Assembly (NCBI RefSeq): GCF_016859285.1
Contig: NC_053415.1
Location: 23,503,501 to 23,567,500 of the forward strand
Source of the DNA: Xiphias gladius
Taxonomy: Eukaryota; Chordata; Actinopteri; Istiophoriformes; Xiphiidae
Reading direction: 5' to 3'
Length of the DNA stretch: 64,000 nucleotides
Positions 716 through 57,916 of the stretch are shown piece by piece. The position numbers and the translations under genes are program-made. The notes below the pieces were generated by a model that saw only the letters and a program-made list of their open reading frames with translations, was not told the DNA's origin and ran no database searches. Positions within the stretch are counted from its first letter, which is position 1. Each line of letters opens with the position of its first letter.

Positions 716-3700
716 CTCTTTAAGTGCTGAGGACACGGTGTCCATGACGTCCTTCTCGTCAAACCACTTCCCCCCGTAGCGAGCCTGGTAGTAGTTGCTG
801 ATGCGAAGCTGCAGTTCAGGTGGGAGCTTCATGAAGGTCATGTAGTGCTCCAAACGGCTCATCTGCAGAGAGTCACACTGTTCTTACAGACTGAAAGTAA
901 CGAGACGATGTTACGGTGCTTGAATGAAATGAAACATGCGTCGTCCCTCGTCTGTTTTCACACCGGCCACTTCTGTCCTACATAAGACTTTATGATAAAT
1001 AACTATATTAATAAAAATAAATATTAAAATGCTAGAATATCAACTAATGATACAGAATCACATAAAAATATATAAATTTCAATCCTTAAGTTAACTTAAT
1101 AAATAGATATTTGATTTAAAAAAATTATTTAAAAAAGGCATGAGATAATTCAATTAATCAATGTTTTTTTAGTTCTCCACTCCAAATCTATTAAATTATT
1201 GCAATAGCATGTGTAATATTTACTGAATATCAAATTCTTACAATATCATTAACTCAGAAGGTCTCTTTTTTATTCCTTTGATATAATATAATATGATATA
1301 ATTTTAAAATATCAGTGTTGATTGATTTGCTTTGCCCCCTACAGTATACATAAATAACCAAATAAACTAACAATGCAACAAAAAACCCTTAAATATTCTG
1401 GCAGAGTCAGTGATGTCTTTTAAATCCCTTCTTAAAACACATTTTTATTGTAGAGGATATCATGAGCTCATTTGAGTTTTTATTTTACTTTATTTCATTT
1501 GTCTTTTATTGAGTTTTGAATTCCCTTTTTATAAATTCTTTGATCTTACACCACTGGAATTGGTTTTATCTTTTCCTCTTTGATTTTGTGTTTAATTTGC
1601 TGCCCTGTGTGAAGCACTCTGTAAGTGCTCTACAAGTAAAAGATTATTATTATAATAAAATAATTTTGAGTTTGAATTGCAACCAATGTCAACTCATTAC
1701 TTGCTTGTGTTTCACTAAGTGCAATAACTTGTTTAGTACGAGCTGTATTTGCTGATGAAGGACAGTAATTGTCACTCGTGAGGACCTTGCTCTTGTACTC
1801 CTTCGCTGCCGGGTCGATGTTGGCAATCATGGCTGTAGCGTTGGCCACGAGGACGGTGTACATCAGACAGCCGGACACCATGCTGACCATGACGATCCAC
1901 ATTTCAACATAATCTGGAGAACAAGATACCACCGGGACAGCTCATTTAGCGTATTATGTGGTGTATTTATGTCTGAGAGACTAATGTGTTACACCTATAC
2001 TTGAATGCCATTAGTGCCTGTGGAAAATCAATAGTTCTCACTTGTTGGAGCGTCCATGGATCCATAAGAGAGAGCAATCATCTGCGAGAGAGCTCGAAAT
2101 ACTCCCCAAGAGTACTTCACGATCACTGTGGCATTCTGGAAGAAATATTTTCTTCATTAGTGGCACTATTTGTAGATCTGGGGCCCGTACCACTAAGCAA
2201 GTTCAATTAAGGGAAGGTTCTCTTGGGGTTATCTGGCTTCACTGAGCCTACTGCCAGCCGCCCCGGATAACCGGTATCACGAAGCTACATAGATACACTG
2301 TAAATAAGTGCAGGAAATATTGTAAGGTTCTTTAGTGTATACTGAGTATTTTTTGCCTTATTGTCAGATCATGAACAAACTATAATGAATTTGTGATAAA
2401 TAAAAAAAGTTACATGTAATGTCAGACTGTTTCTGCTACCAAAGCAGAGAGGAGAGGAGAGAGGAGGAGAGAAGTAGTTAATGTCTGATAAGGTTAATCA
2501 GACATGTTGTATTTATAATCACAGTCAATATTTAACGGTGTTTGGATTATTTTTCTAATAAAAGAAATCAGAGGGTTTAGTTTTTATTTCCAATTATTGT
2601 CACAATGACGTGATCCTCTGAAGTTAACCTGCTCCGGTGCCCGTTAGCCTTGCAGCATAGCGTTAGCATGTTGATCTACCCCAGTTAGAAGTGAGCCAGC
2701 CTCGTGATAATGAAAAACCGGAGTTAAAACCCACTAATCTTGCTTCGTGGTAAAGGCCCCTGAATCTTGACAACAGCAACAACAAATCTTCACGTGACTT
2801 TGAACTAATGCCTGTGGTGTAGATGTTTAAAGCGCCACTAAGTGTTTTTCTGTGCAACAATTTTACGCTATTAACAGGAACACTACTGGTGATACATATT
2901 ACATTTCTGGACGCGTTCTAGGTTTGCCACAGAGAAATTTCTTAGACCCTGTTGTGGAAGCTGGAACCAATGAATATTTGGTATTTTTGCTTTCAAAATG
3001 ACTTACATTCGAAAATCGATTAATCGATTGCTAAAATAGCTTCCAACTCATTTTTTTACATCATTCACAACAACTCATCAGTCACCTTCATCATTCACAC
3101 TCAGTTTGTCTAGAGGAAGTTTTGTGACATGAGTTTTACCATCAGGTTTTCTTTCCGGACCCAGCAGTCAGAGGGGAACTCCTCCAGCATGGGGACAAAG
3201 TACTGGATGCAGCCGTTCCAGTGACACAGCAGGAAAATCATCATGAACAAAGACAAGATGCGGAAGAACAGGCGGACCACCTCCAGGTTTGCATTTGACA
3301 CCTGTCCCGAAGAGATGACATGAAAGCATGCGACTTTATGGCACTTGGTAAGCAAATCGTAGACAGCACAGATCATCCTGGTGGCTCAGTTTGCTGAGGT
3401 ATGTGGCTTATGACAGCAGGATAGCGGGTTTAAATCTGGTCTAGGATCTGCCATGTCCTCTCCCAAGTCTATACTGTATATAAACAGTATACACTCACTC
3501 ACTTACTCACTGGCACAAAATATCTCCAGTGTTTAGGACAGTAAGTTAATATGTTCTCTCACTGGCTACGTTACACTAACTCAACACCCACTATGAATAG
3601 AGAAAAACCTTGACAATAATGTAAAAATGTTGACAGTGATGTTGATTAAGCTTGAGCAGAATTTGGTTAGAGTTATGTGTATTGTGCAGACCTAAGGTCC

Positions 3701-6700
3701 CTTTTCATGACTTTAACTTGCTGTAAAAAAAAAAGAAAAAAAAAAAAAAAGTAGAAAAGATGATTCTGGTTTATTACAACTTGGCTCGTACTTTCATATT
3801 TTGGTCATAATTTCTGTCAGTTATGAGAACATGGTATTCCTGCAAGTAACTGCTGAGATGTGGGACCATGACGACATCACTACAACAGAGTCCGACGGGG
3901 CAAGAAACACAAGCAGTCAGACGATCAGACAGACGGGCGTGTAAACAAGCCAACAGTTTAGCTAGATTACCTGCACCCCTTAATGTGCAGGTAAAACCGA
4001 AAGTGACTGCAGCTGAAATGTTGGCAAAAAATCCCTTACTGTACGGAAGAAACAATTACAGAGAGCTTGTTAAGTCAAAGTTGAACCAGAACATTAGTCT
4101 GTAAACTGTGATGGACATTTACAACGCAATAATCCAATTTTACCTTTGTCTTTGTTTCCTCTTCCAAATAAGTGTGTTTAAAACCTTTGTGATGGTCTGA
4201 CTGTTCATTTATGTTGCCTTGTTTGACTTCTTTTAAGCAATGTCCCCAATGTTTTCAGATCTCAGCAGGTAACTTTGAAAAAGAGACTCAGTTTGTTATA
4301 AAAATAAATTAAAAAAAACCCCAACAAAAAGCAGAATTATCCTTTGTTCCGTTATCCAGTATGCCTGATCTAACTCAATCTAACAGCTAATTAAATAAAA
4401 GTAACCAAACAAATTTATTGCACCCATCTTTCACAACATGCAGAGAAAAGACAGAGAAGCTTGAGTTATTTGCCAAGCAAACAACCCGCAACACCAACAA
4501 TGCTAGGACTCTGGTGATGAACATTAATATAATACCTTCAGCACCAGTTTTTAATAAAAGGGGAGGCACTCGACTTTGTGGAGAACTTCACTTATTCAGC
4601 AGGACACAGTGCACGATTGGGGAAACTCTGCACATCTGGAAGTCTGAGAAATACAGCCAAATTATCAAAGGGCCATCTATACGACAGCAACGTCTCTATC
4701 CCTTTACTTTTCCTCAGGCCTCTGTTGTTTGACCACTAAAGCGTGGTTACATTTGATTAGAAAAAGGAAACCTCTGCTAAAAATAAATAAATAAATAATA
4801 CAAGTGAATTGATTGTTGAGTTGATCGATGAGCTATGTGCCAGCTCTCGTTTTACAAATGACATTGTAAGTGGTCAAAGTCAGATTTGTCATCGGAGCCA
4901 GGTCTGGTAAGGTATCTGCAGGCAGGAGAAAGGTTGATTGAGTTTCAGAGGTGAGCTCTGAAGACTGTCTGGCGTTTGAACTTACTTTCTCCACTTCGTT
5001 GAAGAACCTGACCAGTCTGGACACTCGGGCGAGTCGGATCAAGCTGAGGATCCGCACAAACATCAGTATCCTCATCATCTTGTTGGTCTTGGAGGGGTTG
5101 TCATCGTTGTGGTATTGTAAGTCCTGGGATAGTAAAATTAAAAATGTATATTTACTTTCTTTTCAGGTATTTTCCTGGTTTATTATTATTATTTTATATT
5201 TATTTATAATATACTTGTCTTAAGTTTTTTCAAACCATCATTTTATTTCCTTTTCTTAAATACTTACTGTCTGTAAGGCACTTTCTGACTGCTCTAAGTG
5301 CCACATAAGTTTTTGATTATAAACCATGAACAGTTTATGTAAAATAAAGTGCAAGATTGTTTTGTGCACTGACAGATACTGCAGCAAACTGCTGGCTTTT
5401 TGCTGCTTCGTCAGTCTGTTCATTATTACCGCAAACAGCAGAATGTAGCCGATCGGGAAAGCAGCTATAACGTCTGGTATGAACCATGTCCTCAGGTAAC
5501 TGACTCGGATCCGCTTGATATCCAGAATAGCTTCCTGTGAGAGAGAGCGGAGCAGCAGATTGAGCAGATGGATGAAGGCGCTGTGCAGCACGTGCCACGA
5601 TCAGATGTATAATTTAACACTTGAACTGAACCAATATTTTGGGAGTTTGTCCAAAAAGAAGCGAGACAGTCATGTCAGATGAGATTTGCGGTGTACTCAA
5701 AGAAAATCTGAATTAATCTGACAGCGTTGTTGAATTGTTGCTGAAGCGCATGCATGAATATTTCAAACGGGGAAAAATCGTCTGAGAATAAATCTGGCAA
5801 AACCAGATGCTTGTGCAGTCCAGAGTAACCTCCACAGACAGAACAACACCACAGATGGGCCACTTGTGATTGACAAGATAGAAATCATAAAGCATAAGCA
5901 GATGAAAGCAAACAGGATATAGTCTGTACCATACTTTATTGGAAATATTATACTTCTCATTTATGCAATACAGTAATCCCTGTTATAAAATCAAACAGCA
6001 GGTGCCAATTTCGCCCATGTCCAGGAGATGAGAGGGGAGAGATTGTTAATCTTGCCTTTCGTGTATTGAGTAGATTACAGATGGGGCAGAGATGGATTGT
6101 ATGTGCTTGTCTGTACAGGGATTATAGTCTTCCAGATTGTGTCTGAAAATAGAGTACGGCCACTCTCACCTCGCCGTCCTCTGCTATGATGCCCATCCGG
6201 AAATTCAGAGCCACATCTATCAGGAACAGCGTGTCTGAAAACACGTTAAACCCCTCCCATGCCAGCCCACTGTTTCCATCCAGAAAAGCTATCTCCATGG
6301 GAATCCCAATCAGGTTCAGAAACGTGATGGCCATCATGCACATGATGTAGTAACTCCTACAAGGAAAAACATCAAGAAAACATATTTGAGCTTGTGTGAC
6401 TTTTGAGTAACCCTCAGATCTTGTTTTCCATGTAGGTTTGTAGAGGAAAGTCTCTGTTCGTTTGCCAGAAGGACTCATTAGACGGTCATGCTGCAGCCGG
6501 TAAGGCAAGCTGATTTTCTCTGCTACTGTAACTGCACATCTCCCAAGCCAGGGTTCAGTTTCCAGGCTCAAATAACTCTGCTCTCTGATCCCAGTTGTTT
6601 CATTTGCTCCCTGTATTCATTCCATTTGATTGCCTTATGGACTAATAATAACAATACTGCATGGGTAATGTAAAACCAGCCGTATGTGAAAACCTGTTCT

Positions 6701-7781
6701 CAAACAAGCCATTCGATCCATCTGTTATTTTCCCTTCTAATCCTCCACTATTATCTTTAAATTCACCTCACAAAACTGGAATTTCAAGAGTAGTAATCAT
6801 TTTAATTCTCCTCTACTGATGTTCAAATTTCAATTGCTCTTGTAGGTTACTGTTTTGCTCCGGTGTTTATTTTCTCTTTAAATGTTACACCAATTTAAGG
6901 GTTTTATGACATGCTTTCAGAAGTACAACACAAATAATTATCATAATGAATTATTGTATTGTTGACTAATGCTTAATACTACACCATTCAGCCACAACGT
7001 TAAAACCGGTAATTGGTTTTTAATTTTGTGGGTGACAGATATAATCGGTGTAGGGCAAAAACATTGAGTAGGGCAGCAAGTAATGACTAACTAACTAACT
7101 AATTTTCATTATTGATTAATCTGCTGATTATTTTCTCAATTAATTGATCTAATGTTTATTCTACCAAATGTCAGAAAATACAGAAAAATCCCCAACACAG
7201 TTTCCTAACATCAAAGGTGATGCAAGTTCCCTTCAAAAACACTTCAAAACCTAAAAATATTCAGACAAACAGCGAATCTGTGAATCCGAGAAACTGGAGC
7301 TAGAAAATGTTCGGCATTTTTTGATTAATTATAAAAATAGTTTCAGATTATTTTCTATCGATGAATAATTAATCAATTAAAGGACTAATTATTTAAGCTC
7401 TAATATGGATAAAGATTGTAAGATAAAATAAAATGGGATAAGATAACACTGTATTAATCCCAGGAGCAAAATGAAGCAAATAATTACCTATAAAAACTTA
7501 CTGAAACTACACAACTTTAAAAGATACAGTCACACTGAATGTGGGGGTAGTGTCTCAGTACAGGACTGGCCTCAATCTATCAGATATATTAAATACCTCA
7601 TGAGGCTGAAAGGGTGAATTACAAAGACTCCGCTCTCCAGCTGTCGGATGCACTCCTTCTCCACGGCCACCTCGCTGCCGTACACGTACAACGACTGTCT
7701 GTTCAGCTGCGGGAGAAGCAGGGCTCTCCATCCACAGGTGGCCATACTGCATCCCACGGCGGGACCTTTTAGTTTCTCCAT
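716..7781 (-). CDS. hcnl1: HCN-like voltage-gated proton channel HCNL1 (5' part, continues past left edge)
   Basis: Coding exons in transcript order: 7781-7597, 6356-6170, 5534-5430, 5123-4986, 3301-3140, 2135-2042, 1913-1786, 862-716 (382 codons). The reading phase is intact across all junctions. Seen: an N-terminal HCN-type segment (SLYVYGSEVAVEKE, VIHPFS), S1-S3, S4 (KMMRILMFVRILSLIRLARV), S5 (LLCHWNGCIQYFVP), a pore helix, S6 (VMVSMVSGCLMY) and the first C-linker helices. S4 has Met180 where HCN channels have Arg. The filter is S282-Y283-G284 instead of GYG. Known: zebrafish HCNL1 conducts protons through its voltage sensor because a methionine interrupts the S4 arginines, while its pore is non-conducting; it occurs in sperm. 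The start at 7781 has G at -3 and +4, but the frame stays open upstream through a CAG repeat. The cyclic-nucleotide-binding domain must lie beyond base 1. The exon 7 donor (AAG|GTCCTC) is weak. Confidence 0.88.
863..1785. other. hcnl1 intron 7, AT-rich
   Basis: AT-rich intron between the S6 and C-linker exons. No gene, and no repeat that I recognise. Confidence 0.6.
2180..2760. mobile_element. MITE-like element with terminal inverted repeats, in hcnl1 intron 5
   Basis: The left end reads GGGGCCCGTACCACTAAG. The right end is its inverse with 3 mismatches over 22 bases, closing in TAAAGGCCCC. The subterminal parts (a TTATCTGGCTTCACT-like stretch) are also loosely inverted. There is no coding capacity in its 581 bases, so it is a non-autonomous DNA transposon copy. 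The superfamily is not assigned because no clear target-site duplication is visible. Confidence 0.7.
3378..3462 (+). repeat. tRNA-derived SINE-like fragment in hcnl1 intron 4
   Basis: GTGGCTCAGTTTGCTGAGG resembles a tRNA A box and GCGGGTTTAAATCTGG a B box, about 38 bases apart. This is the layout of a SINE head. There is no cloverleaf good enough to call a functional tRNA. The rest of this intron (3302-4985) holds A-rich runs near 3725-3752 and 4786-4797, and no gene that I recognise. Confidence 0.4.
6976..7402. repeat. Teleost interspersed repeats in hcnl1 intron 1
   Basis: At 6990-7015 there is an ATTCAGCCACAACGTTAAAACC-type repeat end. From about 7070 to 7402 there is a MITE-like unit of the kind starting 'GGCTGCAACTAACGATTATTTTCATTA' in fish genomes, with inverted ATTAATCAATTAA-type ends. 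Related fragments recur in this window at about 10683-10932, 13402-13702, 15784-15905, 24452-24500, 34919-35125, 39117-39165 and 55503-55530. Classification is from memory of fish repeats. Confidence 0.55.

Positions 7782-7832: not shown

Positions 7833-7907
<75 letters not shown>
7833..7907 (-). repeat. (CAG)25 trinucleotide repeat beside the hcnl1 start
   Basis: There are 25 uninterrupted CTG units on the plus strand, which are CAG on the hcnl1 strand. They lie 52 bases upstream of the ATG at 7781 and in frame with it. The frame is open from about 8099 downward with no in-frame ATG above 7781, so the repeat is either 5' UTR or polyglutamine (then K, Q, N on its upstream side) of an isoform starting in an unseen exon. 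A possible acceptor for such an exon is at 8021/8020. Confidence 0.95.
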
Positions 7908-7910
<3 letters not shown>

Positions 7911-10900
7911 CTGGTTCTCCCTCTCAGGACGAGTGGAGTCTGACTCTACCAGTCCTGACCTCCCCTCTTTGTCACAAGGTAATTTTCCATCAAGGCTCCC
8001 AACCTCAGGGCTTACTGAAGCTGTGTGGAGAAAGGCGAGTGGATACCCGCCTTTCTGCTCTCTCCCTCCCTCCCTCCCTCCCTCTCCATCAGCCTCTCTC
8101 TATTCCTGCCCCCACCCAACCCCTCCACCTCTTTTCTTTTTTCCCAGCTCATCAACTATTCAGTATCTGTGTCTCATCCCCACATGAATCAAGCCATGTC
8201 AAGAGGGCAGGGTTCAACTCACATTAATACCGAAGACAATGGCATGTGTGTGTGTGTGTGTATGCATGTGTGTGGAGGGGATCACAATTATTGCATGTGA
8301 ACTAGACATCCGGCAGTGTGTGCAGGGGCAAGTTCAGTCCGAGCCATCCCTACCAGCGATGTAATTAAACACTGTACTGTGTTACCTGATGCTGTACATA
8401 TGCTTGCAGCTCTGAGCGAGCTCCTGTGTTGTTTGTTTGCACATTTCACATCAGTAGAAAGAAAAAAAAAAGAATCAGGCTGAAATATTTCATTTTGAGG
8501 ATTACAAAGTAGAAGTTTGGGATTGAATTCATCTGGATCTTTTCACTTTTTCTTGGAGGGTTGGTTAGGATCCGTTGCGAGAAAACTTGCAATGGATTAA
8601 CCGAGGGGTCCTGTCAGCGGGTAAGGTGAATCACCAGCAGCTTAGTGCGTGACATGTGTCAAGATTACTGTTTTTTTCAGATTATCTTTGGATAACTGCA
8701 CACAGGTACAAGATACACTGGAAGTGATTATACGGAAGAACAAAAAGACCACTTTTCCCCGCTTACATATGGATCAAGTCCGCAGGCGTAGTGATTTCTT
8801 TTAGTTCAGAATTTGCAGGGTAAGTGCAATGCTACAGTGAGACGCGATAGACTTCCAACCTGCCTCTCCTCTGATGCCCCTTCTGAAATATGCTTCAACC
8901 CCTTGTGACCCTGAACAGGAATAGAGCAGTTTAGAAAACTGTCGGATGTCATACCCGTTGTAGTTTTTATTTTAGTAACTTGTAACTGTTAAGCATTAAA
9001 TCCGAATTACAATTTTCAACTAACATAATAATCTTTTTCTGGCAACAACATCTGGCTGAGCAAAGGGAGCATGTGGGCCAACTCTGGGCAAGACAAACTT
9101 CTCTACCGAACCAGTCTTAAAGCAGGTCGACAGAAACAACAAAGTGGGTTGTTTTTTCATTGCCTTCCCAAAGGACCCACATGACCATTTCAAAAACTAT
9201 TCATGCAAGTGTTTTCTGACCTGTTCCCTCTACGGTTGAGGTCTGGTCAAGCACAATACAGATTCCACATGTATTTGGTCAAAGTTAGGGAAAGATCGTG
9301 GTCATGGTCAAAAGAAACCAATGTTTTGGGTGAGACGCTTTGTACACAAAACCCTCCTCCGCAATACAACATCGAACTACTCACGTCTTCACTTCTGTCA
9401 TTACTCACACGAGCACAATCACGCCCCAATTAAGTGTTTGAAAAAAATGGTAGATGCTGTCGTAGAGACAGTCTCTTAAGTACCCTAAACAGCAGCTACC
9501 GAGAGAAAGTGAAGCATTTCTCAGTTACTTTTGCAGACACTGGACCTCTCTAAAGGGTCTCGGCATCTTTACCACTCCCCAGCTCACTTTATTAGGTTGG
9601 TTTTCAGACTGACATTTGCGGTCCAGTGCAACAACAGGCATGTCTGAGCTGTTGTGGGTGGGTCTTTTGCTTTGGTTGTGTCAAAAACCACTGGTGTTTA
9701 TAATCCAATTGTTGAATTACATTACAATGTGATCTAAGTGAATGTCCGGTTAGTTCTTTTCTGGAGCACTGCCGTGCAATGTTCTGTGTGTTGGTATGTG
9801 ACAAGTTCTCTGTTCCAACAAAGAACAAGGCTTATTGGAATATACAGCACGTGGGAGAATATTCGCTGGGTGCATGGCAAATACCAATCAAACAAAAAAA
9901 AACAAAACGAACAAACAAACAAACAAACAAAAAAGACAGAGTGCTTACAATTCTGCTTTCATAGATGCTGCTGGAAGCTTTCAGCAGACAGGAAGAGGAG
10001 GCGGCACGCGGTCAGGACCTCGGCTGTAGACCTACACCTCACCTCCTTCAGGGGGCAGATTTCTGCAGGAAACGCCAAAAGAAAGACAGACTTCAAATAA
10101 AACTGATATTGAATTACAGGGTATTTAAATGCTGCCTGTATATTCAGCATTTTGCCTTTTTAAAGTGCAACACAATATTGGCTCTAATGCTGTGGAGAGC
10201 AAAGAAAAGACTGCAGCAGAATGTGTTTCAAATGGAGGTGCATATCTATCACACAGGGCGAGCAAACAAACAATATGCTTACTTATTCATTTATCTAGCA
10301 CACAGCTGGCCCTCAAACTAGAATAAGTGACTCAGTGCTTCTGCTTACGCACTGCTTTGCTGTGCTGACGCAGTGTAGACCCAGCAGACATGTGAAAACG
10401 CACACATACCTTAAGCATTGTCGGACAGAAGATGAACATTTTTCATCTTACAAAACTCCCGTGACATTGTAGTGTATGCTGTACCCATCAGCAATATTTT
10501 TTTTACAGCACAGAATATGATATCTGCCAAAGTAGCTGGTAGTGTAGAAAAAACAATAGTTCTGTGTGGTGGTTTATGTCAATTTTCCACTCATACAGTT
10601 CTTTTTTTTTTTATTATCAATAAACAGCAAAAGCACTTGTGCAGTTACACATATTGATATTTTACACCAACACACATCAGTGTAGTGCTGAAACAATTAG
10701 TCAATTAACAAAAAAAAATAAAAAATAAAGTAAGTAAAACATTTTCTGGTCCCAGATTTTCAATGTGAGGATTTGCTGCTTTTACTCTGTTTACTATCCC
10801 TGTATCAATTTAAACTGAATTTCTTTGGATTTTGTTGGTTAGTTCTGTTGTTTAGAGAAAACAAGCAATTCAAAGACATCACATTTTGGATGCCGGAAAT

Positions 10901-14614: not shown

Positions 14615-14905
14615 ATGTCGACGGTGTCTGCTGCCAGCTTGGAGACTGCTCCTGCGACTGAGAGCGCTGAGCAGAAGAAGCCACTGAAACCATGCTGTGC
14701 TTGTCCAGAAACAAAGAAAGTCAGAGATGCCTGGTAAGTATCTAGCCTGAGAGACTGAAAAACAACTTTGTTTAAGTGAAAACATTTTATTAATGTCATG
14801 TGTCTTTCTTTTACCCTCAGCATCATTGAAAAGGGAGAGGAAAACTGCACTGACCTAATTGAGGCACATAAAGATTGCATGAGGGCGCTTGGATTCAAGA
14901 TTTAA
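14615..14905 (+). CDS. cox17: COX17, mitochondrial copper chaperone for cytochrome c oxidase
   Basis: Coding exons 14615-14733 and 14821-14905 give a 67-aa protein (human 63 aa). It carries copper in the intermembrane space to SCO1 and COX11 for assembly of complex IV. Seen: the Cu-binding KPCCAC (Cys27, Cys28) and the twin CX9C pairs Cys30-Cys40 and Cys49-Cys59 that form the disulfide hairpin after MIA40 import. The ending MRALGFKI equals the human one as I recall it. A probable non-coding first exon ends at 12866 (CACGA|GTAAGTC). The start follows an acceptor (CATTCAG|CCTGAAG). The stop exon ends at about 14935 (GTG|GTGAGT) and splices to a 3' UTR exon at 16866. Identification is certain from sequence identity. 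Confidence 0.96.
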
Positions 14906-19598: not shown

Positions 19599-20096
19599 AT
19601 GAGCTCAGACAACTCAACTCTGCTGGACAGCTTGTTCTTTGCACCACTGTGCGATGGCTGGAGCAACAACACAGAGGGAGCCATCTACCATTTGGGTAAC
19701 ACCATCCTGTTCCTGGGCTACATGGGAGGCAGCGGGGCCTATGGGTGCCTCTTCATCTTTGGCTTCCTGACTCCAGCCTTCCTGTGCCTGACCCTGTGGG
19801 GCTGGCTGACGATGTGCGGCCTTGACGTCTTCACCTGGAACCTGCTTCTGCTGCTGGCCTGCTTTGCTCAAATCTGCCACCTCCTTTACCGGCTGCACCA
19901 GGAGGGCATACGCAGTGCAAAGCTGACCTCCCTCTACCAGGCGGTCTACCTGCCGCTGGGCGTGCCCGTCCAGGTGTTCAAGGAGATAGCAAGTGCTTTT
20001 GAGAATAAGGTGGTAGAGCTGAAGGCAGGAGAGACGTACGCTGTGGAGGGCAAGACGCCCATCGACCAGCTCTCCTTTCTGCTGTCTGGGAGGTGG

Positions 20097-20155
<59 letters not shown>

Positions 20156-23100
20156 ATGCCTGTATGACATGATGCAATCCACCACCATTAACTGTCTCCA
20201 AAGAATACAACCAACATATTCAAGTAACTGTTGCAGTACCATGATTTAAAAATACCTTGTCTCGGGTAAAACTCCTGCATTGAAACCTTTTCTTAAATCT
20301 GCAATAACTGACGTTTTTGCCATTTGGAGGCAGCGGTAACAAGCTGTAAACACAACATCTCACGTTCAGTATCCACCACCTTTTAAGTTGAAATGGTCAA
20401 CATGTTGGCAAACAGTTGCTTATTTACACATCCAGCTGTTACAGGGCAACATTAGCTTTCATTTAGATCCATGTTTATGACCACTCGATGAATATAACTG
20501 CAATAATTATTCTATTTTAGCTCTGTTTTTGGTCTCTACCATCTGCAGAGGGAAATATCTGGTTCTTTAGCTGGTGAATGTTCACCAGCTGGCCACTGAC
20601 TGCGTCTGATTGCCCGGTGCTCTAGCAGAGTACAGTTGGTTTTTAGACCTTTCTTGCCGAAAGCAGCTGCTCTGGGAGTGGTGACGGGGAACCAAAACAG
20701 TAAAGTTGCAGCTGTAAAATCCAAAACAACGACTATAAAGATGCCAAAATGCATCGTTGAGCTCAGGCGATCGGCAGATCTGTGGCTGACGTCTTCCACA
20801 TTACACATAGTCAACTGATCAATTGTTAATTGGAAGATATTGATCACAGCCGCCTTAAGTAAAAGCACCACACCCAGCAGTGATGTCACAGTGTACTGAC
20901 ACATCCTGGAGTACACTTCTACAGCACTGAGGCAGGACGAGGAGTTAAACCACTGGAGGTGAGCAAAAACAGGATTTTCCGCTGTTAGGTTCCTCTCAAG
21001 TGTCAAAAGTAAGAGAACTTATTTTCCAGAATCCCCTCCTTCCGAGTTTTGTTACAATACTCGATCATTATGAACATGCAAACTGGTCGAGTAAGAGCTA
21101 GTTTGAGCTACTTTACGTAATATTGGGTAGTTTACTCTTTAAAAATGCATCATATTAATATGCTGATCATGTGTCTTATATGTAACATGCTTACCCACAA
21201 AGTAAGCAACTAATGAGCTGTCAGGTAAATGCAGTTTTGTAAAAAGTACAAAACTACTTAATATATGAGTATAAAGTGCCAGTAAATGTAAATACGAAAC
21301 TAAAGTACCTCAAAATGATACTTTAGTATTTGAGTTAATGTACTTAGTTGGTTTCCTCCACTGACCGACATTTCTCTGACACAGTCTGAACAAAAACGAA
21401 ACATCACAAACTTCGCAAATCAGTGTTTATTTCAGCTACTACTTCAGCCGTTCGCATGGTTTTACAGGAGTTTGTGTTATTTTGTCCACCTACTAAATGT
21501 GTTCACAGCTTCTGTGGAGTTTTGTGACCAAGTAGATAAGAGGTAGTTCTTACTTTCCCATTGACATTATGTGACGTTTCATTTTCCTGAACGAAGCTAT
21601 TATTATTATAAAGCATGTTATTGCAGATCTTAGTGTCACAGAATTTAAGACTAAACCAGAAACTGTTCACTCATGTGTACCACAGGTATATATTGTAGTA
21701 TTTATTGGTTTAATGCATCTTGTAGTGATATGAACGCTAAGCTCCTTTATTTTTTGAGAAATCTCCTATTTTAACTGGCTACTCCAGAACTGGTTTTCTA
21801 TTTTTAGCTCTTTCAGGCTGTTGGCAGCGTGTAGCCATTACAGGAAATGTATCCTCTTCATCCAAACATCCTCACAGTAGAGCTGCATTAGATCTCACAG
21901 TCCTGGAGCCTACACAAGAGAAATGTTGTAAACAAAGTATTTTTGTCTGTGACTCACCAGTGTGCCGTCCCCCTGCGGAGTGCCAGCTGGTTAAATGATA
22001 TCTTTGTACTTAGGACAGAAGAGTTGACGCTGACTGCTCCCCTTACCTTGAATTAAATGTTGGCCGCAGTGTCGGCGGCTCCGGGTGTACGAGCCAAATT
22101 TAGAACAACAAACAAATGAACAAAACGCCGATAATGACTGTTTTCACATTTCGAGCGCGGCGGTGCATCAGATGTGTTTGTCATTTTAGGTTCTTGTTTA
22201 TCTTTATTTATCTGTCTGTCTTAATCAGCCTCTCTTTCTATTGTCTTAACCCAGAGGATTTTATTTGATGCTCTACTTTAACTGCTTCCACTTGGCTGGG
22301 AGCAGGTGTGGAGGTCAGGGCTGTGTGCAGGCCAGTCAAGTTCTTCCACACCAAACTTAGAAAACCATCTCTTCACAGACCTGGGCCCATATTTATCCCC
22401 CCTCTAAGAAAACGTCAAAAGTGCAAACTTGAAAAAGTTCTTGGCTCAGTGTGAGCAATGACACAACGCAGGTGACTTACTCCCACTTACAGCAAAGTGT
22501 AAAAGTAACTTTAAGAACAACTCTCAAGTGAACACATGACTGATAACTTGTATGCTCAGAGAAGGAATAGCCAACAGAGATATAGATCTGGCTCCTGGGA
22601 GACCTCTGGAACTCTCGAAGATTTAAGAGCATTTTTAAGTCAAAAAATGTTTGAGAAACGGTTTTTATTCTTAAATTTGTAAGTAGGAGTTAAAGTGAAG
22701 TTTTTTTTACTTTCATTTTTGCACTGAAGTCCAAACTTTCACTTTTAGCAGTTACGAGCCCCGGCTTTGGCGCACGGGGGCGGAAAGTGTCTTCCTCAAA
22801 GTGTTGCCAAAAAGTTGGAGGCACACTGTTAAATCTGAAACAACATAAAAGTTCTAAAATAGTAAAAATCACATACCGTAGCATGAAGATTTCCCATAAA
22901 TGGAACCAAGGGGCCCGAATGGGAACGACGACCTCGGTCCAAAGGATGTGGGTGTCCGCATATTTTGGGCCATAAACAATGGGACACGGAGTAAAGTACT
23001 GGCAGTACAGTGACATTTCTAGCATGGGACTCCCTGATGGAAATCCCTCCCCTGGCAGTGTGAGTACTTTGCAGGGTAATTAATACCACAATAGACAGCA

Positions 23101-25632
23101 ACATACAGTAGCCGTTAGATAAGACCCATTGTTGTGCAGGCACAAATAAAATAAAAACTGCCACAATCTTCGGCTCTAAAGTGAACAGACGCTCTAATAA
23201 GCATTCATCTGCTAAAAATTTACATTTACCAAAACAGAATACCAGGATCATTTAGACTTGTTGCCTAATTACGATTCTTTACATCTGTATTTTAAATTTT
23301 CTGTATCAGTTTACAGTGACTGGCCATTGGATTTTTAATCAAGTTTTAATTTTTTGACCCTATGTAAGTGCCAGCTGCTGTAACGAAGGCATTAGAAAGA
23401 CGGGGACATGACAAAACCTGGAGGAGAAAACTCTCCTGGAGCAGACTTCCATTTCTTTCTGTACGTGTCAGGTGATTGATATGAAGCAGATCGTTTGCAG
23501 CACTGATATGACTACATTCAACCCGCACTGAAAACAAGGATGAATCAAACTTTGACAGACACTTTTGACGTAATCCAATGAAGCTTAAAAGTCGAGTGTG
23601 CTGGGTTATCTCACTCTGCGGAAGCTATTTCCCTTTACATAAAGCTTCCCTCTGAAGGAGGAATGTCTTGATGTCTTAAATTAGGATTTCTTCGTGCAGA
23701 AAGACTGAAGAGGAAACTTGGTATTATCAATTTATATGAAAATGTTCTGTTTAAGGAGCTCCACACTTTTCAGTCCAACCACGGCTGCCCCAACAGAGAT
23801 ATTTATGCTAATATTTACCTCCAGCGTCTTAGTCTGGCCCTGCAAAGTGACCTCCAGTTCTCTCTCGGCTCTCATTATCACTTCCTAATCCCTGTCTCTC
23901 TTTTTAACCCCCGTATCTCTCCCTCTCCCTCTCTGTCTCCCAGGATCAACGTGTCTTTGGAGGGCCAGTTCCTGCATTACATCCACCGCCACCAGTTCCT
24001 CGACTCTCCGGAGTGGGAGTCTCTCAGACCAAACGAGGAGGGGAAGTTCCAGGTACTGTGCGGGGGCCACGACATGCGGTTAATTTCAGGAGATGCTGGT
24101 GTAGTTTCTGTAGTTTTCTGTAGTTTTAACAAAGTAAATTCAGTGAAGGAATGTGAGGTTCGAAGGCCCCAGTGTGGCAGTAAAATGTTAAATTAACTCG
24201 AAGTGCTGTCCTGGAGGGAGAAACCTGACTCGGATATCAAGTTGTCTTTCGTTGCTTTCTGTCGTACTCAGCATCTGGCTGATAAGTTGAACATACGAGA
24301 GCAGTTGTCTTCTTGTATGTCAATATATCCTGTCGTTTTATATTCGCTCAGTTAAAGTAGAAACGGGGCCTGGAGGTCATGTCGGACATTCAGGGTTTTG
24401 TCTGCAGACTTCACAGGGTTTCAGGGATCAATAGGGTGTACAAATAGTAGTAGGGCTGCAACTAACACGTATTTTCATTATCAGTTAATCTGTATTTTTT
24501 TTTTTTTTGCCAAAGATTGTGTTAAACTGTTAAATGAATTCCCAGTGGAGTTATCTTGTAAAGAAAAGTTATTTTAGGTTCAGTGTTATTCACCAAAATG
24601 CATTGTGCATATCCTTGATGTCTAACAAAAGTGTTTGTGTTGCCTCATAAAAAAATATGCCAATTCTAAAATATTTTAAATCATTGTTTACATCCGTGTT
24701 TACTAGCCAGCAGTCTTTTTTCTTCCCTGCCTTTGCTGCCGCACTGCAACGTTTTCCTGCACATTACCGCCACCAAGTGGCGATCAGGGAAATCGTCCTT
24801 GTGCGTGTACACAATGCAAACAAAACGGGGGGCCTGCTTGTAAAAACATTGCTCCATACTGCTGCTAGTGGTCAGTACCTTCGCGTGGTACCTTTAAAGT
24901 GGCTATAATGACTAAACACTGGACTCAGAGTCATCAAGTGGACACAAACATGATAATATGGCTCCGTAATTGCTGGCGATGATATTTCAGTATTGTGTCC
25001 ACAACTTCCGCTGCCCCCCAAACAAACGAAACAGTTATTGCAAGTTTAACACATTGATATTCAGCTGTTTCATTCATACTCCCCAGGTGACTCTGACGGC
25101 AGAGGAAGACTCCTGCTACATCTCATGGCGTCGCCGCCGCCTCTACGCACTGATATCAAAGGAGCGCTACATCGCCCGCATCTTCTCCGTCATGCTGGGC
25201 TACGACATCGCAGAAAAGCTCTACAATCTCAACAACAAGCTCTACATAAAGAGCGGCGTGCTGCTGGACATCCGCCTTCCCAGCCTCTACCACGTGCTGG
25301 CCCCCTCGTCGCAGAGCAGCGAGGGCGGCAGCTGCAGTGACGCTGGCATCGCCAGGGAGCAGCAAACCGAGAAACCAGGCCAACACCAAGCACCGGCCCA
25401 TGAGAAGCCCGCACCAGCCGAGTCTCAGCCCCTCCAGCCACACCTGCAGGGACCAAGGAAGACCCACCTAGATGAACCCCAGGCACCCCAGCATGACCGT
25501 TATCGACACCCCTGGGCGTCAGACCCGGAGCTGGCCTCTGGTGAGGACTCCACCAGCCTGGTCCTGGAGGACTTTGCTGATGTGGCGGGCTCCTTAATGG
25601 ATTATGGGAGTGAGAGGGATTATTTGAGGTAG
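19599..25632 (+). CDS. popdc2: POPDC2, Popeye domain-containing cAMP-binding membrane protein
   Basis: Coding exons 19599-20092, 23944-24052 and 25087-25632 give 382 aa. Popeye proteins are three-pass membrane proteins of heart and skeletal muscle that bind cAMP and modulate channels such as TREK-1; loss causes pacemaker defects. Seen: N-glycosylation sequons at N5 and N23, three hydrophobic segments between about residues 30 and 105, then the Popeye domain. The invariant cAMP motifs are present: DSPE at 185-188 and FQVT at 200-203, the latter split by intron 2 (FQ|VT). The C-terminal third is low-complexity, hydrophilic and Q/P/S-rich, as in the family. The start is the first ATG of the exon and matches the family N-terminus. 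Intron 1 opens directly into a long TG repeat. No poly(A) signal could be assigned firmly. Confidence 0.95.
20100..20153 (+). repeat. (TG)n microsatellite at the popdc2 exon 1 donor
   Basis: About 26 TG units start 7 bases inside intron 1, right after GGGAG|GTGGGGA. Confidence 0.95.
20154..23943. other. popdc2 intron 1
   Basis: Long intron. A stretch at about 20530-21010 holds an open minus-strand frame (156 codons) without any recognisable domain, which I take to be repeat sequence. At 21225-21365 there is a fragment of a 'GTACTTAGT'-rich hAT-like MITE also seen at 25.9, 44.5 and 52 kb. At 22383-22690 there is a MITE-like stretch starting GGGCCCATATTTATC. No exon recognised. Confidence 0.45.
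24053..25086. other. popdc2 intron 2
   Basis: Contains a GGGCTGCAACTAACACG repeat end at 24452 and an unclassified stretch at about 24700-24900 resembling an interspersed repeat. No exon. Confidence 0.45.
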
Positions 25633-48076: not shown

Positions 48077-50919
48077 TTAACGATTAGCTCTTATTCGTTC
48101 CCTCTCTAGTGGCAACTGTGAGGCCAGCCATTCGATGGTGCGTTTGCGTGCTTCCTCCCAGCTGTATCTGGGGTTGTATCCCAGTTCTTTCTTAGCTTTC
48201 TGATAGGAGAAGGTGAACTGTGTGTTCAGCAAGGTGACGAGCTGCCGGTTCAGCGGCGGGACGATGCGTATGAAAGGTTGGAGCATCCTGCACAGAATCT
48301 CCAAAAAGAAACAGACCACATAAAGGAGGCAGAGCGGCAGCGGGAGTTTCTTTTGAATGCTGAAGCCCAGAGAGGCCAACAAGACATGGTTGAAGTCCGA
48401 GTAACTCACCGGCGGTGTATCATCGGAAATGAAGTAAAACTTTCCTCCAACAGCATTTCTTATTTGTGGATCTTTGAGGCTGCGAGCTGCTTGGAGATGA
48501 GCCACAGCCACGTTGCCCACATAGACAGGATTCACATGGGCCTCTGGTAGAGACATTCGCAACAGCACGTCTTTGTTTTCTATCCCTTTGCCCATGTGGT
48601 AAAGCAAGAAGCGGCAGCCGTCCCCAAAGATGTACGTAGGTCTGAGGGCGCAGGTGGCCAGTCGCCCTCCGTTTTGGAGCACCTCGCCGTTGGCCTGCAG
48701 GGTTCTCTGTTCAGCCTCCTTTTTGGTCTTGCTGTAGGAAAACCTCAGAGTGCAGTCATAAATTGTGTCCTCGCTGCCGTTAATTATTGGTTCACCCTTG
48801 GAGTTTGGTCCCATCACCTCGAGGGTGCTGGTGTAGATGAAGGACGTCACGCTCTCCTGAATACATGACTCCAGAAGAACCTGTGTTCCTGCAAAACAAA
48901 GCTGTTGAGTTCATTTAAGCTAAAAAAAAAAAAATCTGAATTACTAGTTTCTTCTCTCTCTTATCTCAGAGGAGGGCAAACCTTTCTTCTGGTGTTGCAA
49001 CAACAAGAAAGTTAACACATTAGAATGAAGACAAACTAAGTCTTTGCATTCGGCCATTTTATTATTCAGGACAGGGGCTACAGCAAAAAACTAGAAAAGC
49101 TACTGTAGAAACAGTCGTTGAAACATCTAAAAGCTTTTGAAATGACAATGTATGGCAGGCAGTGTTGCCAGATTGGATTTGCAAAAAGTCCAGTCGGAGT
49201 TTAGAACACGCCCAGCCGTCATAAAAGCGATCCGATCCTCCAATCCTCCGCTGTTTCATCAATGTAATTGGACAGACTCAAAACCATGGTTTCAAAACAA
49301 TTGATTTTGACTGTCATCAGTTAGCAGTCACTGGATACTAGGTTGAGCTCAGGGCCCTGTGATAGCTGTTTTTTTTTTTGGTGGAAGCAGCCTGAATGGT
49401 ACAAAAAGTAACCCGAATGATCACAGCCTGACCAAAACGATGTTTACCCTCCCAACCAAATAAACGTAGCACAATCTGGCAACCTTAATGGCAGGAATGG
49501 CTAAATTTGAAACTTAAGTAAATTTTGCACCTAAAGTGGAGGCAATGAAAAGACTCAGAGTGGAAGTTCTAGTTTAAGCGTAAGTGTAAATGCTGAGTAA
49601 AGTTTTGAAATGGACGTTAAGATGAACACACTGAAAGGATTTGGTCAGTTGCAGTTACAGTAAAGTGCTTTAAAAAGCTGAAGTTTCAGTCGGAGTGCAA
49701 GCACAGAAATATGTTACTGTCAGTTCAAGTGTCAGGTCAAACGCAAACACTGAACGGAGTTAGTATATGTTGAAATGTAGGCAGTGACAGCAGCTAAAGC
49801 GTCGGTCAACGTAAGTCATTAAGGCTGTTTGAGGAGTCAGTGTAAGCGCTGAAAGTTGGTTAATGAGTTAGCACTGAGGGAAGCTGAAATGTCAGTTGAA
49901 GTGTAAAAGGTCAGATGTTACTCTCAGCTCAGGGTTAAGCTGTGAGAGAAGCTTGTGTCTGTTGAAATGTGCCGAATCTGTGAGAGAAAAAACGTGGCGT
50001 TGCCCAGTAGAGAGGTCGGCGGATTGAAAGGTACATCCTTACCTCTGACATTGACGCCATACATCTCATTGTACTCCACTGGTTCCTTAATGTCAATGAT
50101 GGATGCGATGTGGAAGATGACGGATGCACCGCGACAGGCTCTTCTCACAAAGTCACTGTCCCTGATGTCCCCCTCAAAAACGCTCAGCTTTGTGTCGCCT
50201 CTACAGTCTTACACAAAGTGAAATCAAGAATAAAATGTCACAACACAATATAAGGCTCGGTCAGTTCATACATATACTGTATATATAGCAACAATGTCTA
50301 CAGCGTTTTCTTGGGCTTTTTATCCTTAGATATTTCTACAGTTGCTGTCCCGTGAAAATTTAGTCAGCACAAATATAAAACAGCCTTGGAGTGTTTAAGA
50401 GCTTATCTAATGTGTTGTTAAACAATTACATGAACCCCAGTGGTATCAGAACTCTTCCCCGATTAGTTAAAAGAAAAATAAAATGAAATGCTCTACTGGA
50501 ATCACAAATTGTCGTCACCTACTGTAGCTATGTGGCGTTTGACAGGTGCCACTAATCATCACAGCCTCATGCTGTCAGCCCCTATATTCAGATTTATACT
50601 GTACTATCAATGTTTTGTTTTTTGTTTTTTTTAAATGAAATAGATATTTGAGAAAAACCTCCTCCTGAACTTTTAATGTGTTTAATGTATCAAAAAATTT
50701 CATCTGGGCTGCACAAAGGACAAAAAAAAACAAAAAACAAAAAAAAAGTGTAGCTGGACAGATTTTACCCTCCAGAGTCTTTAAAAATTGCGGCTCAACG
50801 TGTTTGTCCAGCATTCGAATCTCAGCCATATTCTCTTCCTCCAGCAGCAGCATCACCAGCCTCTTTCCCAGGAATCCACAGGCTCCCGTCACCAGACACA
50901 CATCACCTCTCAGAGACAT
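48077..50919 (-). CDS. hsd3b1: 3-beta-hydroxysteroid dehydrogenase / delta5-4 isomerase
   Basis: Coding exons 50919-50769, 50198-50043 and 48888-48077 give 372 aa (human HSD3B1 373). The enzyme converts pregnenolone, 17-hydroxypregnenolone and DHEA to progesterone, 17-hydroxyprogesterone and androstenedione with NAD+, in endoplasmic reticulum and mitochondrial membranes of gonad and interrenal cells. Seen: Rossmann motif TGACGFLG at residues 12-19, the FIYTSTLEV strand at 119-127, and the catalytic Tyr154-x3-Lys158 at the same numbers as human. A hydrophobic membrane segment (LPLCLLYVVCFFLEILC) lies near residue 280. The ATG at 50919 begins MSLRGDVCLVTGACG; the in-frame ATG further upstream lies in a T-rich stretch and is unlikely. 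Assignment to the hsd3b1 rather than hsd3b2 teleost paralogue is by neighbourhood and is less sure than the family. Confidence 0.92.
49540..49930. repeat. Degenerate minisatellite in hsd3b intron 2
   Basis: Loosely repeated phrases such as GTCAGTTCAAGTGTCAGGTC, AAACGCAAACACTGAA and GTCAGTTGAAGTGTAAAAGG recur every 40-60 bases. No frame or exon. Intron 1 (50199-50768) shows nothing of note beyond T-rich stretches. Confidence 0.5.
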
Positions 50920-51482
50920 TGCAGGGTAATTCTCTCTTGGTATGAGGACCAAAAAGGGAAAAAAAAAAAAAAAAAATTCCTTCTCTTCCAATGCTCTTCT
51001 TTCAGAGAGGTCTGGGCGAGCCTCCTCAGAAGAATAGGCTCAAAGTGAAAAGGAAAAGAAAAAGGAGAATGCAGCTTTTGCGTTCGGGAATGTTTCAGAT
51101 TCCGTCGGTGGGAGACTGACAGTACTGTCTGCCTTCACGCTCTCAGTCCTCGCGCTTTTTGTAAGCCCAGAAAAGTGGCTAGAAAAAATTAATTATTTTC
51201 TTCTCGGCAGTGTGGAAAAGTGGGAAGGACTCTGTTGCTCCATGAAAGAATCTGAGACAGACAAAATGGGGGATGAAACTTCCAAGGACAGTTGAAAGAC
51301 AGCTGTTGAAAGATATTTCCTTTTATGTAAGTGAATGCCACTGTGTTTCGGGAGGTGGGCAGACTCAGCATGTGACGCAGACAACAAGAAGGCACAAGTT
51401 AATGGGCTCATTTAAAAACACCCTCTTCTGAAACGAAATAACTGACACTCAGTGGAGGAAGAAGTGATGAGGTGTTTTGCTC

Positions 51483-54862: not shown

Positions 54863-57830
54863 TCAACTCTTTGCGGTGAGCAGCGGGCACTCCTGGATCT
54901 GAGCCTCATCCACTGACCCCTCCGGAAGGTGAACCGTCATTGTACAGGCACGAATCCCCCCCAGCGGCTCCAGCACGTTGAACACTCTGTCCCACACGTC
55001 CTGCTCTGGATCATACCGCTGCACAATGTCGACCATGCACCTGCTGTTCCAGGAATACCCTCCCACCACATATATCTGCCCGTTGAACACAGTCACACCG
55101 ACGTCACTCTGGCCCCGAGGCATGGGCGCCACCACCGTCCACTGGTCTGTCTCGGGGCTGTAGTATTCGCAGCCCAGGACGTCGTCGTAGTCGCTGCTGC
55201 CTCGGAAGTGATTCCCGCCCATGACATAGAGTCTGTCTCCGACGGTGCACATGCAGTGCAGGCCGCGGAGCTCTGTCATGTTGGCCCGCTGACTCCATGT
55301 GTCGGCTGCGGGATCATAACACCAGAGCTCCCTCTGGAAGGTGTCTCGGGTGATGCCACCTGTTTGACAAAGGAGAATCCAACAAATATTACAGTATGTT
55401 AAAAACATTAAAAACATAAAAGACCTTACAGGTATCAAAATTGTTTTATTAAAAGGAACAGTAAGTGTTAAGTGTGAACAAAACTCGGTATATGTGTATT
55501 TTAGGGCTGCAGCTAATTATGACTTTTAATTGTTGTTTTTTTTCCATTCACCTCCTGCTCTCTCTCTTTTACCGGCTCTTTCATGTTCTGGCATCCAAGG
55601 GGATGCCGGCTATCCACAATGATAATTTTATAAGCATGCTGTACGCAAAAAGACCGGTGTTTGCCAACGACCACTGCTCCGTTGCTATTCATTTTTCAGC
55701 TCTGCGTTGTCAGCCACTTTTAGCTCATGGCTTATGGATATTCACGGCGACATAATCAAAACAACATTGCTTCATGTGAAAGAGTGAGCAGCTGTTTCTA
55801 GCACAGGAGCCCACACGAGCTCGCTGTACACGTGAGGATAGTCAAAAATTATCTAGCAGGGGCTGGAAGTAGAGCTCAGGGGTGGGCAGGTGTGAGACAC
55901 CACAGATACTAGACTGACAATCAAAATAACACAAACATGCAATAGTCACGTCGAGCTGTCTCTGCCAGCTTTGCGAGTAGGCAGCCGCTTGTGTTAGCCA
56001 TGGCACTTTGATAAGCTAGATGCTGTATATTCTGAATCTTTTTCACAAATGGCGCTCCTCAGTTTGACAGTGATTTAGGTATATACAGTACCTACATATA
56101 CTGTAGATGTGGGGAAAAAAATGCAATTCAATATCAAGTTTCCTATAACTTTCAACCCCTTGCCTCGTACTTGATTTTTTGTTTAGGTTACACTGAGCCT
56201 GAGTTGCAACTCAAAAACAGTCTTGTGGACTGAAATGCAGACAGTAGGTAAGTATGTACAGGATGTTGTGTCTAAGTATGTGTTGTTATCTGGTAAACGG
56301 TATATGTTACCAACACAGTATAGCAGTATGGAGATGTGGGTTTTGACTTTGCTGCAAAGCGATGTGGCCCACTTCAACCAGAGGTCTTCGTGTTTCCTGC
56401 TTCTCGGTCCTACATGTGAAACTTAAGTTTCAGGTCTCAACATGAAAAGGACGGCTTCCTGTCCAAGGTTGGTAAGAAAACTGCCTGAGATCAGGGTTAA
56501 AACAGCTTGTGACATTTAGTTCCAGCTAAGCAGGAAGTGGTTTCAAATAGGCCAGCCAAGCAAGCTTTGACACTTTTTGTAACCTTTAGACAGTCATTGA
56601 AAGAATCTGCATAAACAGGTTTAGATGTTTATGAATACTTTTTAGACTCAAGGATCCTTTCAAAGTCTACTGTGCTCCGAGTACGAAGGTGGACTGGACT
56701 GTTGGACTCCCATATTAATGGCAGGGAGGTCAAAATCTTGTATCTAATGGCATGTAGGGTTTGTGACATTTCAAAAGTAGCCAAGAAGAGGTCAAGAAAA
56801 TCATCATTCGTCTAAGAGTTAATGATGTCAACAGCCAACAGCCTTTACAGGAAGGTTTTACCCAGCTGCTTGATATTAATACACTAAGTAAATCCACGGT
56901 TATGGCTTCTACTTCTGTTTAAATTCGCTCTCTGGATTGCAGGGCTGGAGCACTCCTCGAGGCTTTTCGGCCCTCTTCTGCTCGTGTGAAATTTGATTAC
57001 GTTTTAATCAACAATTTTAATCACTTCCAATCATGGATGTCCTGATTGCAACATTACAGGAATGTTCTAACCAGAGAAGCAACAGGTCATTTATTGAAAC
57101 ACTTAAAATAGATAATTTTTGACAAGTGACCTGTACCGATTGTGTGAATAGTGATTGTCCCATGACATGGCTGCTTGTACAGGCGGAGAAGTCTGGTGGG
57201 TGAAAGAATGGTCTTGTCTCCAAAACATGCGTCAAACAAACAGTTAATGTTGGTTTCTTTTTACCACAAATGCAAGCTTCTTGCAAGTCTGACAATGACC
57301 ATGAACCTTCCCTGAAAGTCATTAGGGAACCATCAGGTCTGCCGGTATATATGTTAGTAAGTCATTAACAAAAGCGTAGTCATTTTTTATGCGGTTTTTT
57401 AATGTTAGTAAGCCATTAATAACGGGTAATGGGTTTCTCAGTTTGTAATAAGCCATCCGAAAATGTCACCTATAAATGTTAAAATTAGTAAATTAATTAT
57501 AGGTTACACAATAATCCATCAAGTCTGTGTTTTTAAATATTAATAAGCAGTTTATAAATGGATTTTGTTTCCAGTGTGTGTGTGTGGTCAAAGGTGAGTG
57601 GCCAAACACTCCATCGGAGGGAGTAAATGGACTGCACTGCACTTATATAGCGCTTTTCTAGTCTTATCGACCACTCAAAATCGCTTTACACTACTGCCGC
57701 ATTCACCCAGTCACACACACATTAGTACATTGCTTTTCTGCACAAACAGTGCCCTCTACACACACATCAATACACCGATGCCCAAATTTGTTCTAGGTGG
57801 CGCGAACTGAGACCGGGATTCAGCACATTT

Positions 57831-57916
<86 letters not shown>

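Follow-up and report, generated by a model that had tools for sequence, protein, structure and literature searches.

An S4 methionine, an altered pore filter and a changed cyclic-nucleotide site point to an HCNL1-type gene in Xiphias gladius

Background

The locus described here raises the question whether a gene that resembles the HCN pacemaker channels, and that carries a methionine in its S4 voltage sensor, is one more member of HCN1-4 or belongs to the HCNL1 kind, where the voltage sensor would be the path of the ions. According to the cited passages of PMC11700363, only two voltage-gated proton channels have been described and HCNL1 is one of them; it is restricted to sperm, highly proton-selective and with a non-conducting pore domain, and an Arg introduced in its S4 is said to block or reduce proton conduction. 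The initial annotation had named M169 as the key residue of the zebrafish protein, and this is in print: according to the relevant passage of PMC13095418, placing an Arg at M169 suppresses the proton current but leaves a gating current that can be detected, and M169 is equivalent to a conserved Arg of the HCN1 S4, given as R248. The passage used from PMC10651576 places the HCNL1 S4 Met at the 'third position', and reports an altered pore filter and the loss of the essential CNBD Arg for the zebrafish protein.

Results

Gene structure

The window, that is the whole stretch of 64,000 nt that was analysed (C16:23503501-23567500), lies within a 690.8-Mb genome of 1298 contigs. Inside it the gene, here called HCNL, has eight exons on the minus strand, which have AG/GT borders, join in phase and encode 382 residues without a stop. 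Read past the window to its probable stop, the gene has ten exons and 518 residues, again without an internal stop. The features of the gene are:

7597..7781, minus strand: exon 1, 185 nt, with the ATG at 7781, the HCN domain and His56, which precedes the inner end of S1; the donor is gtattt, and Pfam finds Ion_trans_N at residues 18-60 (1.9e-18)
6170..6356, minus strand: exon 2, 187 nt, S1-S2 with Glu83 (codon 6295-6293); AG/GT borders; its start coincides with the intron between HCN exons 1 and 2
5430..5534, minus strand: exon 3, 105 nt, S2-S3 loop and S3 with Pro144 and Gly153, from the gene model and the HCN alignment
4986..5123, minus strand: exon 4, 138 nt, encodes the S4 voltage sensor; its end coincides with the intron between HCN exons 2 and 3
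5061..5063, minus strand: Met180 codon; in the alignment with canonical HCNs the residue falls on the third basic position of S4
3140..3301, minus strand: exon 5, 162 nt, S4-S5 linker, S5 and turret; length equal to the homologous exon in 7/7 fish hcn loci
2042..2135, minus strand: exon 6, 94 nt, with the sequon N260-A-T and the pore helix; residues 280-287 are the degenerate filter ALSYGSMD, where HCN has CIGYG-xQ
1786..1913, minus strand: exon 7, 128 nt, S6; exons 6 and 7 sum to 222 nt, one inserted codon more than the 219 nt of the fish hcn loci
716..862, minus strand: exon 8, 147 nt, C-linker; length equal to the homologous exon in 7/7 fish hcn loci
C16:23503054-23502817, minus strand, beyond the window: exon 9 (CNBD)
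C16:23501190 to the stop at 23501018, minus strand, beyond the window: exon 10 (CNBD)

Pfam further detected Ion_trans (4.7e-16) and, on exons 9 and 10 together, cNMP_binding (2.6e-17). As a donor-like gtaagt overlaps the stop of exon 10, a further exon is possible; a simple rule gave eight candidate stretches past the stop, none of them convincing by eye.

Ten spliceable in-phase exons without an internal stop, at only 39-42% identity to HCNs, point to selection rather than decay. The alternative of a decaying pseudogene could draw on this same low identity and on the long branch described below, but it would have to account for AG/GT borders and an unbroken frame over 518 residues as well as for an S2 that keeps 12/14 of the positions invariant in HCNs, and we regard it as hardly credible.

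Just upstream of the ATG about 27 CAG units (minus-strand reading) lie at 7833-7913, in frame and open. No in-frame ATG occurs in the 300 nt upstream, and the repeat likely belongs to the 5' leader.

The exon lengths of HCNL, 187+105+138 (430), 162, 94+128 (222) and 147 nt, correspond in each sum to a single exon of the hcn loci. In the same genome the hcn exon homologous to HCNL exons 2-4 measures 424 nt in five of seven loci and 430 nt in the C24 locus, and is split in C22. The counterparts of exons 5 and 8 are 162 and 147 nt long in all seven; that of exons 6 and 7 is 219 nt in five of seven by script, with C6 and C14 taken from the peptide. HCNL thus has the HCN intron positions at all five places compared (the outer borders of the four stretches, at homologous codons) plus three extra introns. 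Neither of the introns that flank exon 3 occurs in the six fish hcn loci whose exon 2 is unsplit, and in the remaining locus, C22, the split lies at another place.

According to the passages cited from PMC3487815, vertebrate HCN paralogues 'completely share these boundaries' of their exons, and the pore sequon is common to vertebrate HCNs and one Ciona HCN. Since HCNL keeps both the HCN introns and the sequon, as N260-A-T, it is tied to the HCN lineage. The shared introns and the sequon do not distinguish a branching before HCN1-4 from one within them.

The S4 exon

Exon 4 (window 5123-4986, minus strand) translates to KMMRILMFVRILSLIRLARV. Its borders are the acceptor ...tatcccag and the donor gtaagt, with phase 0 at both ends. 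The initial annotation had the coordinates, strand and peptide of this exon right (5123-4986, minus, DLQYHNDDNPSKTNKMMRILMFVRILSLIRLARVSRLVRFFNEVEK), and likewise the number of the methionine, residue 180 counted from the ATG at 7781, with its codon at 5063-5061. It took the Met to replace the second spaced Arg, but the alignment makes it the third: K174, R177, M180 and R183 align, in this order, with the four basic residues that come first in the S4 of HCN (R, R, R, K). R189, R192, R195 and R198 follow. At the position of Met180 there is an Arg in 10/10 canonical HCN rows, seven from the same genome and three from the PDB.

The remaining S4 charges are kept, as had been claimed: seven of the eight basic positions are retained (five unchanged, two with K/R swaps) and the third alone is lost. 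Set against an HCN-invariant background of 50%, this retention has p ~0.035, a value that is only rough because the background rate counts identity alone and the swaps were counted as kept. When the whole genome was searched with the S4 stretch, the window copy matched at 100% and the seven canonical hcn loci at 50%, with no further match up to E 1. The genome thus yielded one HCNL-type gene besides seven canonical hcn loci.

A Met in S4 is by itself no proof of proton flow.

Pore filter, CNBD and S4-S5 linker

In the selectivity filter the CIGYG-xQ of HCN is replaced by ALSYGSMD, so that GYG becomes SYG and one residue is inserted. In the CNBD, compared with the HCN4 stretch from the PDB search, GRRTA of HCN reads GKHLA in exon 10, with an Arg to His change, and the HCNL reading stops within the last CNBD helix, which is shortened. 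The second Arg of GRRTA we take to be the cyclic-nucleotide ligand Arg (R591 of mouse HCN2).

HCNL accordingly has all three HCNL1 sequence marks, as far as the cited passages define them (S4 Met, filter, CNBD Arg). The latter two lay beyond what the initial annotation had looked at, and they strengthen its proposal of an HCNL1-type gene. Judged from the sequence, the gene is very probably the HCNL1 orthologue of this fish.

HCNL keeps 104 of the 208 positions that are invariant in the ten HCNs. Among 13 regions whose limits were set by hand, the S4-S5 linker keeps 1/13 positions (p 0.0026; 0.033 corrected for 13 regions) and S2 keeps 12/14 (p 0.010; 0.13 corrected for 13 regions). The remaining 11 regions are unremarkable, including the filter with 3/8 positions kept. 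So extensive a rewriting of the linker would be expected to leave the sensor uncoupled from the pore.

A dead filter and a dead CNBD in an intact frame would also suit a silent subunit, one that gives no current of its own and modifies canonical HCN subunits in a mixed channel. The HCN-invariant positions kept in S5 (13/21) and in the turret (13/20), together with the N-A-T sequon, agree with such a role. This explanation, however, does not say why S4 should have lost a single charge and kept the others, and zebrafish HCNL1, for which the same three marks are reported, conducts when expressed in oocytes, as stated in the part of PMC11700363 cited here. We consider a silent subunit unlikely.

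Further changes are found in the sensor. Three residues that are invariant in HCN differ from all ten HCNs, G83 being replaced by Glu, D153 by Gly and D66 by Ile, and Pro144 stands where all ten have Val. Two of these, the acid gained in G83E and the acid lost in D153G, could alter selectivity, and they bear on the possibility that the S4 Met makes a gating pore that admits cations of any kind instead of selecting protons. Non-selective cation currents through other voltage sensors with altered S4 residues are listed in a passage of PMC10651576, but the high proton selectivity that PMC11700363, in the text cited, reports for zebrafish HCNL1 argues against a non-selective leak, which we hold to be very unlikely.

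Relation to HCN1-4

The best solved relatives in a PDB search were HCN4, HCN3 and HCN1 (best E 4.1e-98), with CNG and EAG-type channels at 3.2e-19 and weaker. HCNL is 39-42% identical to each of the ten canonical HCNs over about 317 residues; these are at least 77.5% identical among themselves. The features that define HCN1-4 are a GYG filter, all S4 basic positions and the cyclic-nucleotide Arg, and HCNL lacks this set. Searches for HCNL relatives in bacterial/archaeal genome and viral collections gave none that was confirmed.

A tree was computed from 14 rows (HCNL, seven fish hcn, three PDB HCN and three fish CNG-type sequences), without zebrafish HCNL1. The best tree places HCNL beside HCN4 with support 44/62, on a very long HCNL branch (3.08). 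A split that separates HCN1-4 from all other rows was neither supported nor rejected (p-AU 0.317). The CNG rows are too distant to root the 14-row tree, and 25% of the 200 bootstrap trees unite the HCN rows, in a bootstrap that had not settled.

These values are compatible with a place outside HCN1-4 and with one inside, and in the latter case with a fast-evolving paralogue from the vertebrate genome duplications that has become HCNL1-like by convergence; the hcn intron positions at all five places compared would fit this as well. An older sister of HCN1-4 would be just as likely to have those introns, however; seven canonical hcn loci are already present in the genome, and three separate HCNL1 marks would have to coincide. 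Such a paralogue appears highly improbable to us, and HCNL1 orthology is the reading that we follow.

Two of the canonical loci deserve mention on their own. In the C22 locus (L041/L042, C22:18099799-18103292) an extra intron in the S2-S3 loop splits exon 2 a few codons off the HCNL intron; considered as a second HCNL for its split exon, this locus was rejected, its sequence being canonical hcn. The C24 locus (L043/L044, C24:16519677-16522545) is a divergent canonical gene, 77.5-81.6% identical to the other nine rows, with an exon 2 of 430 nt, not 424, and an intact GYG.

Neighbouring genes

The other genes recognised in the window are:

14639..14902, plus strand: cox17, two exons and the intron between them; local tblastn, one match across the intron, E 8e-21
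19599..25629, plus strand: POPDC-family gene, outer limits of two exons; Pfam POPDC1-3
48080-51039, minus strand: 3-beta-HSD (3-beta-hydroxysteroid dehydrogenase) exons, taken as one gene; match in the window
54866-60420, minus strand: BTB, BACK and kelch exons, taken as one gene; match in the window

The cox17 query was the human COX17 sequence. The POPDC1-3 matches were 1.7e-33 at 19599-20204 and 6.7e-6 at 24970-25629, the second at 26.7 bits and thus under the cut-off of 28.1. The initial annotation had named cox17 and popdc2 as neighbours of the channel gene. Both cox17 and a POPDC-family gene were recovered, and the latter is presumably popdc2 rather than popdc1 or popdc3, an assignment based on its place beside cox17.

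Below HCNL, the first stretch that looks like a gene (L009) lies on the plus strand at a window offset of about -6773 to -3542; it is convergent with HCNL and has open frames of 258 and 115 residues. Neither frame had a Pfam match over the cut-off (one chance match, E 0.09), and the longer was without a PDB match.

The order kelch gene, hsd3b, popdc, cox17, HCNL, between which other genes may intervene, gives an anchor for the locus. Together with the intron signature, the HCN borders plus three, it is usable to seek orthologues in other fish. Searches of the open-licence literature turned up no publication on the locus, on the order of its genes or on its introns.

Discussion

The explanation that we find likely is that the locus is the HCNL1-type gene of this fish and encodes a six-transmembrane relative of HCN, with a pore and a cyclic-nucleotide switch that look dead and with the voltage sensor as ion path. 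That the protein conducts protons is probable by analogy with zebrafish HCNL1. On hyperpolarisation S4 would move inward and Met180 would come to occupy the narrow part of the voltage sensor, where an Arg plugs HCN1-4. Protons could then flow inward through each of the four voltage sensors, the central pore staying shut throughout, and by analogy with zebrafish the sperm would be acidified and depolarised.

The initial annotation presented the S4 Met in a second fish lineage as an anchor for a rare family. The title of the zebrafish HCNL1 paper of Wobig et al. (2020, PNAS) already says 'a family'. M169 is also called evolutionarily conserved in the cited part of a review (PMC13095418), and that the Met is news for the HCNL1 family is not supported in this form. 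What is new is most likely a further HCNL1 sequence, the HCNL1 kind itself having been described. The value of a second sequence with the full set of marks is that it helps to tell the traits that occur as a set, namely the S4 Met, the changed filter and the loss of the CNBD Arg, from those that need not accompany them, such as the outer histidines.

The zebrafish partner of HCNL1 is CNGK. Among 48 CNBD and 20 CNG genome matches there was no cluster of four CNBDs, in a weak search that, because it ran exon by exon, does not establish the absence of CNGK. In the course of this search two near-identical copies with exons that look CNGB-like by eye were seen about 13 kb apart on C5 (L064, L065; C5:554748-567730), and these are possibly a tandem duplication.

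Tentatively, and with rather low confidence, we suggest that the channel works outside the zebrafish setting, lacking both a CNGK partner and the outer histidines, and having its sensor uncoupled from a vestigial pore (12/13 HCN-invariant S4-S5 positions lost). If so, it would be incomplete to describe HCNL1 as half of a freshwater CNGK-HCNL1 loop, and sensor and pore would evolve as separate modules.

Comparison with known channels

With zebrafish HCNL1 the protein shares the plan of VSD, pore domain and CNBD, the altered filter, the missing CNBD Arg and, in the register adopted here, the Met at the third basic S4 position. Zinc sites are described in print for the zebrafish channel, H50 on the intracellular side and H78 and H82 on the outer side in the S1-S2 linker, where the effect is weak. 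His56 lies before S1 where H50 would sit, at an inferred offset of 6, and this position is also His in all the HCNs aligned; no counterpart of H78 or H82 was seen, HCNL residues 57-100 being free of His. The proteins differ in spacing: H50 and M169 are 119 residues apart by the printed numbers, His56 and Met180 are 124 apart, and in PDB HCN1 the distance to the aligned Arg is 122. If spacing were the only guide, the zebrafish Met might lie a helix turn before the position that our register gives to Met180, but the difference settles nothing because loop lengths differ, and the 'third position' wording in the passage from PMC10651576 favours the register used here. From two review statements we infer that Met180 is M169. 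The printed HCN1 number R248 does not match the PDB HCN1 chain, in which the aligned Arg is 258.

With the HCN1-4 pacemaker channels HCNL shares the domain plan, the introns at all five places compared and the pore sequon. Unlike them it has Met for Arg in S4, SYG with an insertion for GYG, a rewritten S4-S5 linker, His for Arg in the CNBD, a C-terminus that ends in the CNBD region and three extra introns.

The likeness to the proton channel Hv1 is that protons would pass the voltage sensor in the mechanism proposed for HCNL. Hv1, as described in the cited text of PMC11700363, is made up of a voltage-sensor-type domain, has no pore domain and is opened by depolarisation, whereas HCNL has a pore domain and a CNBD, and its product is not a member of the Hv1 family.
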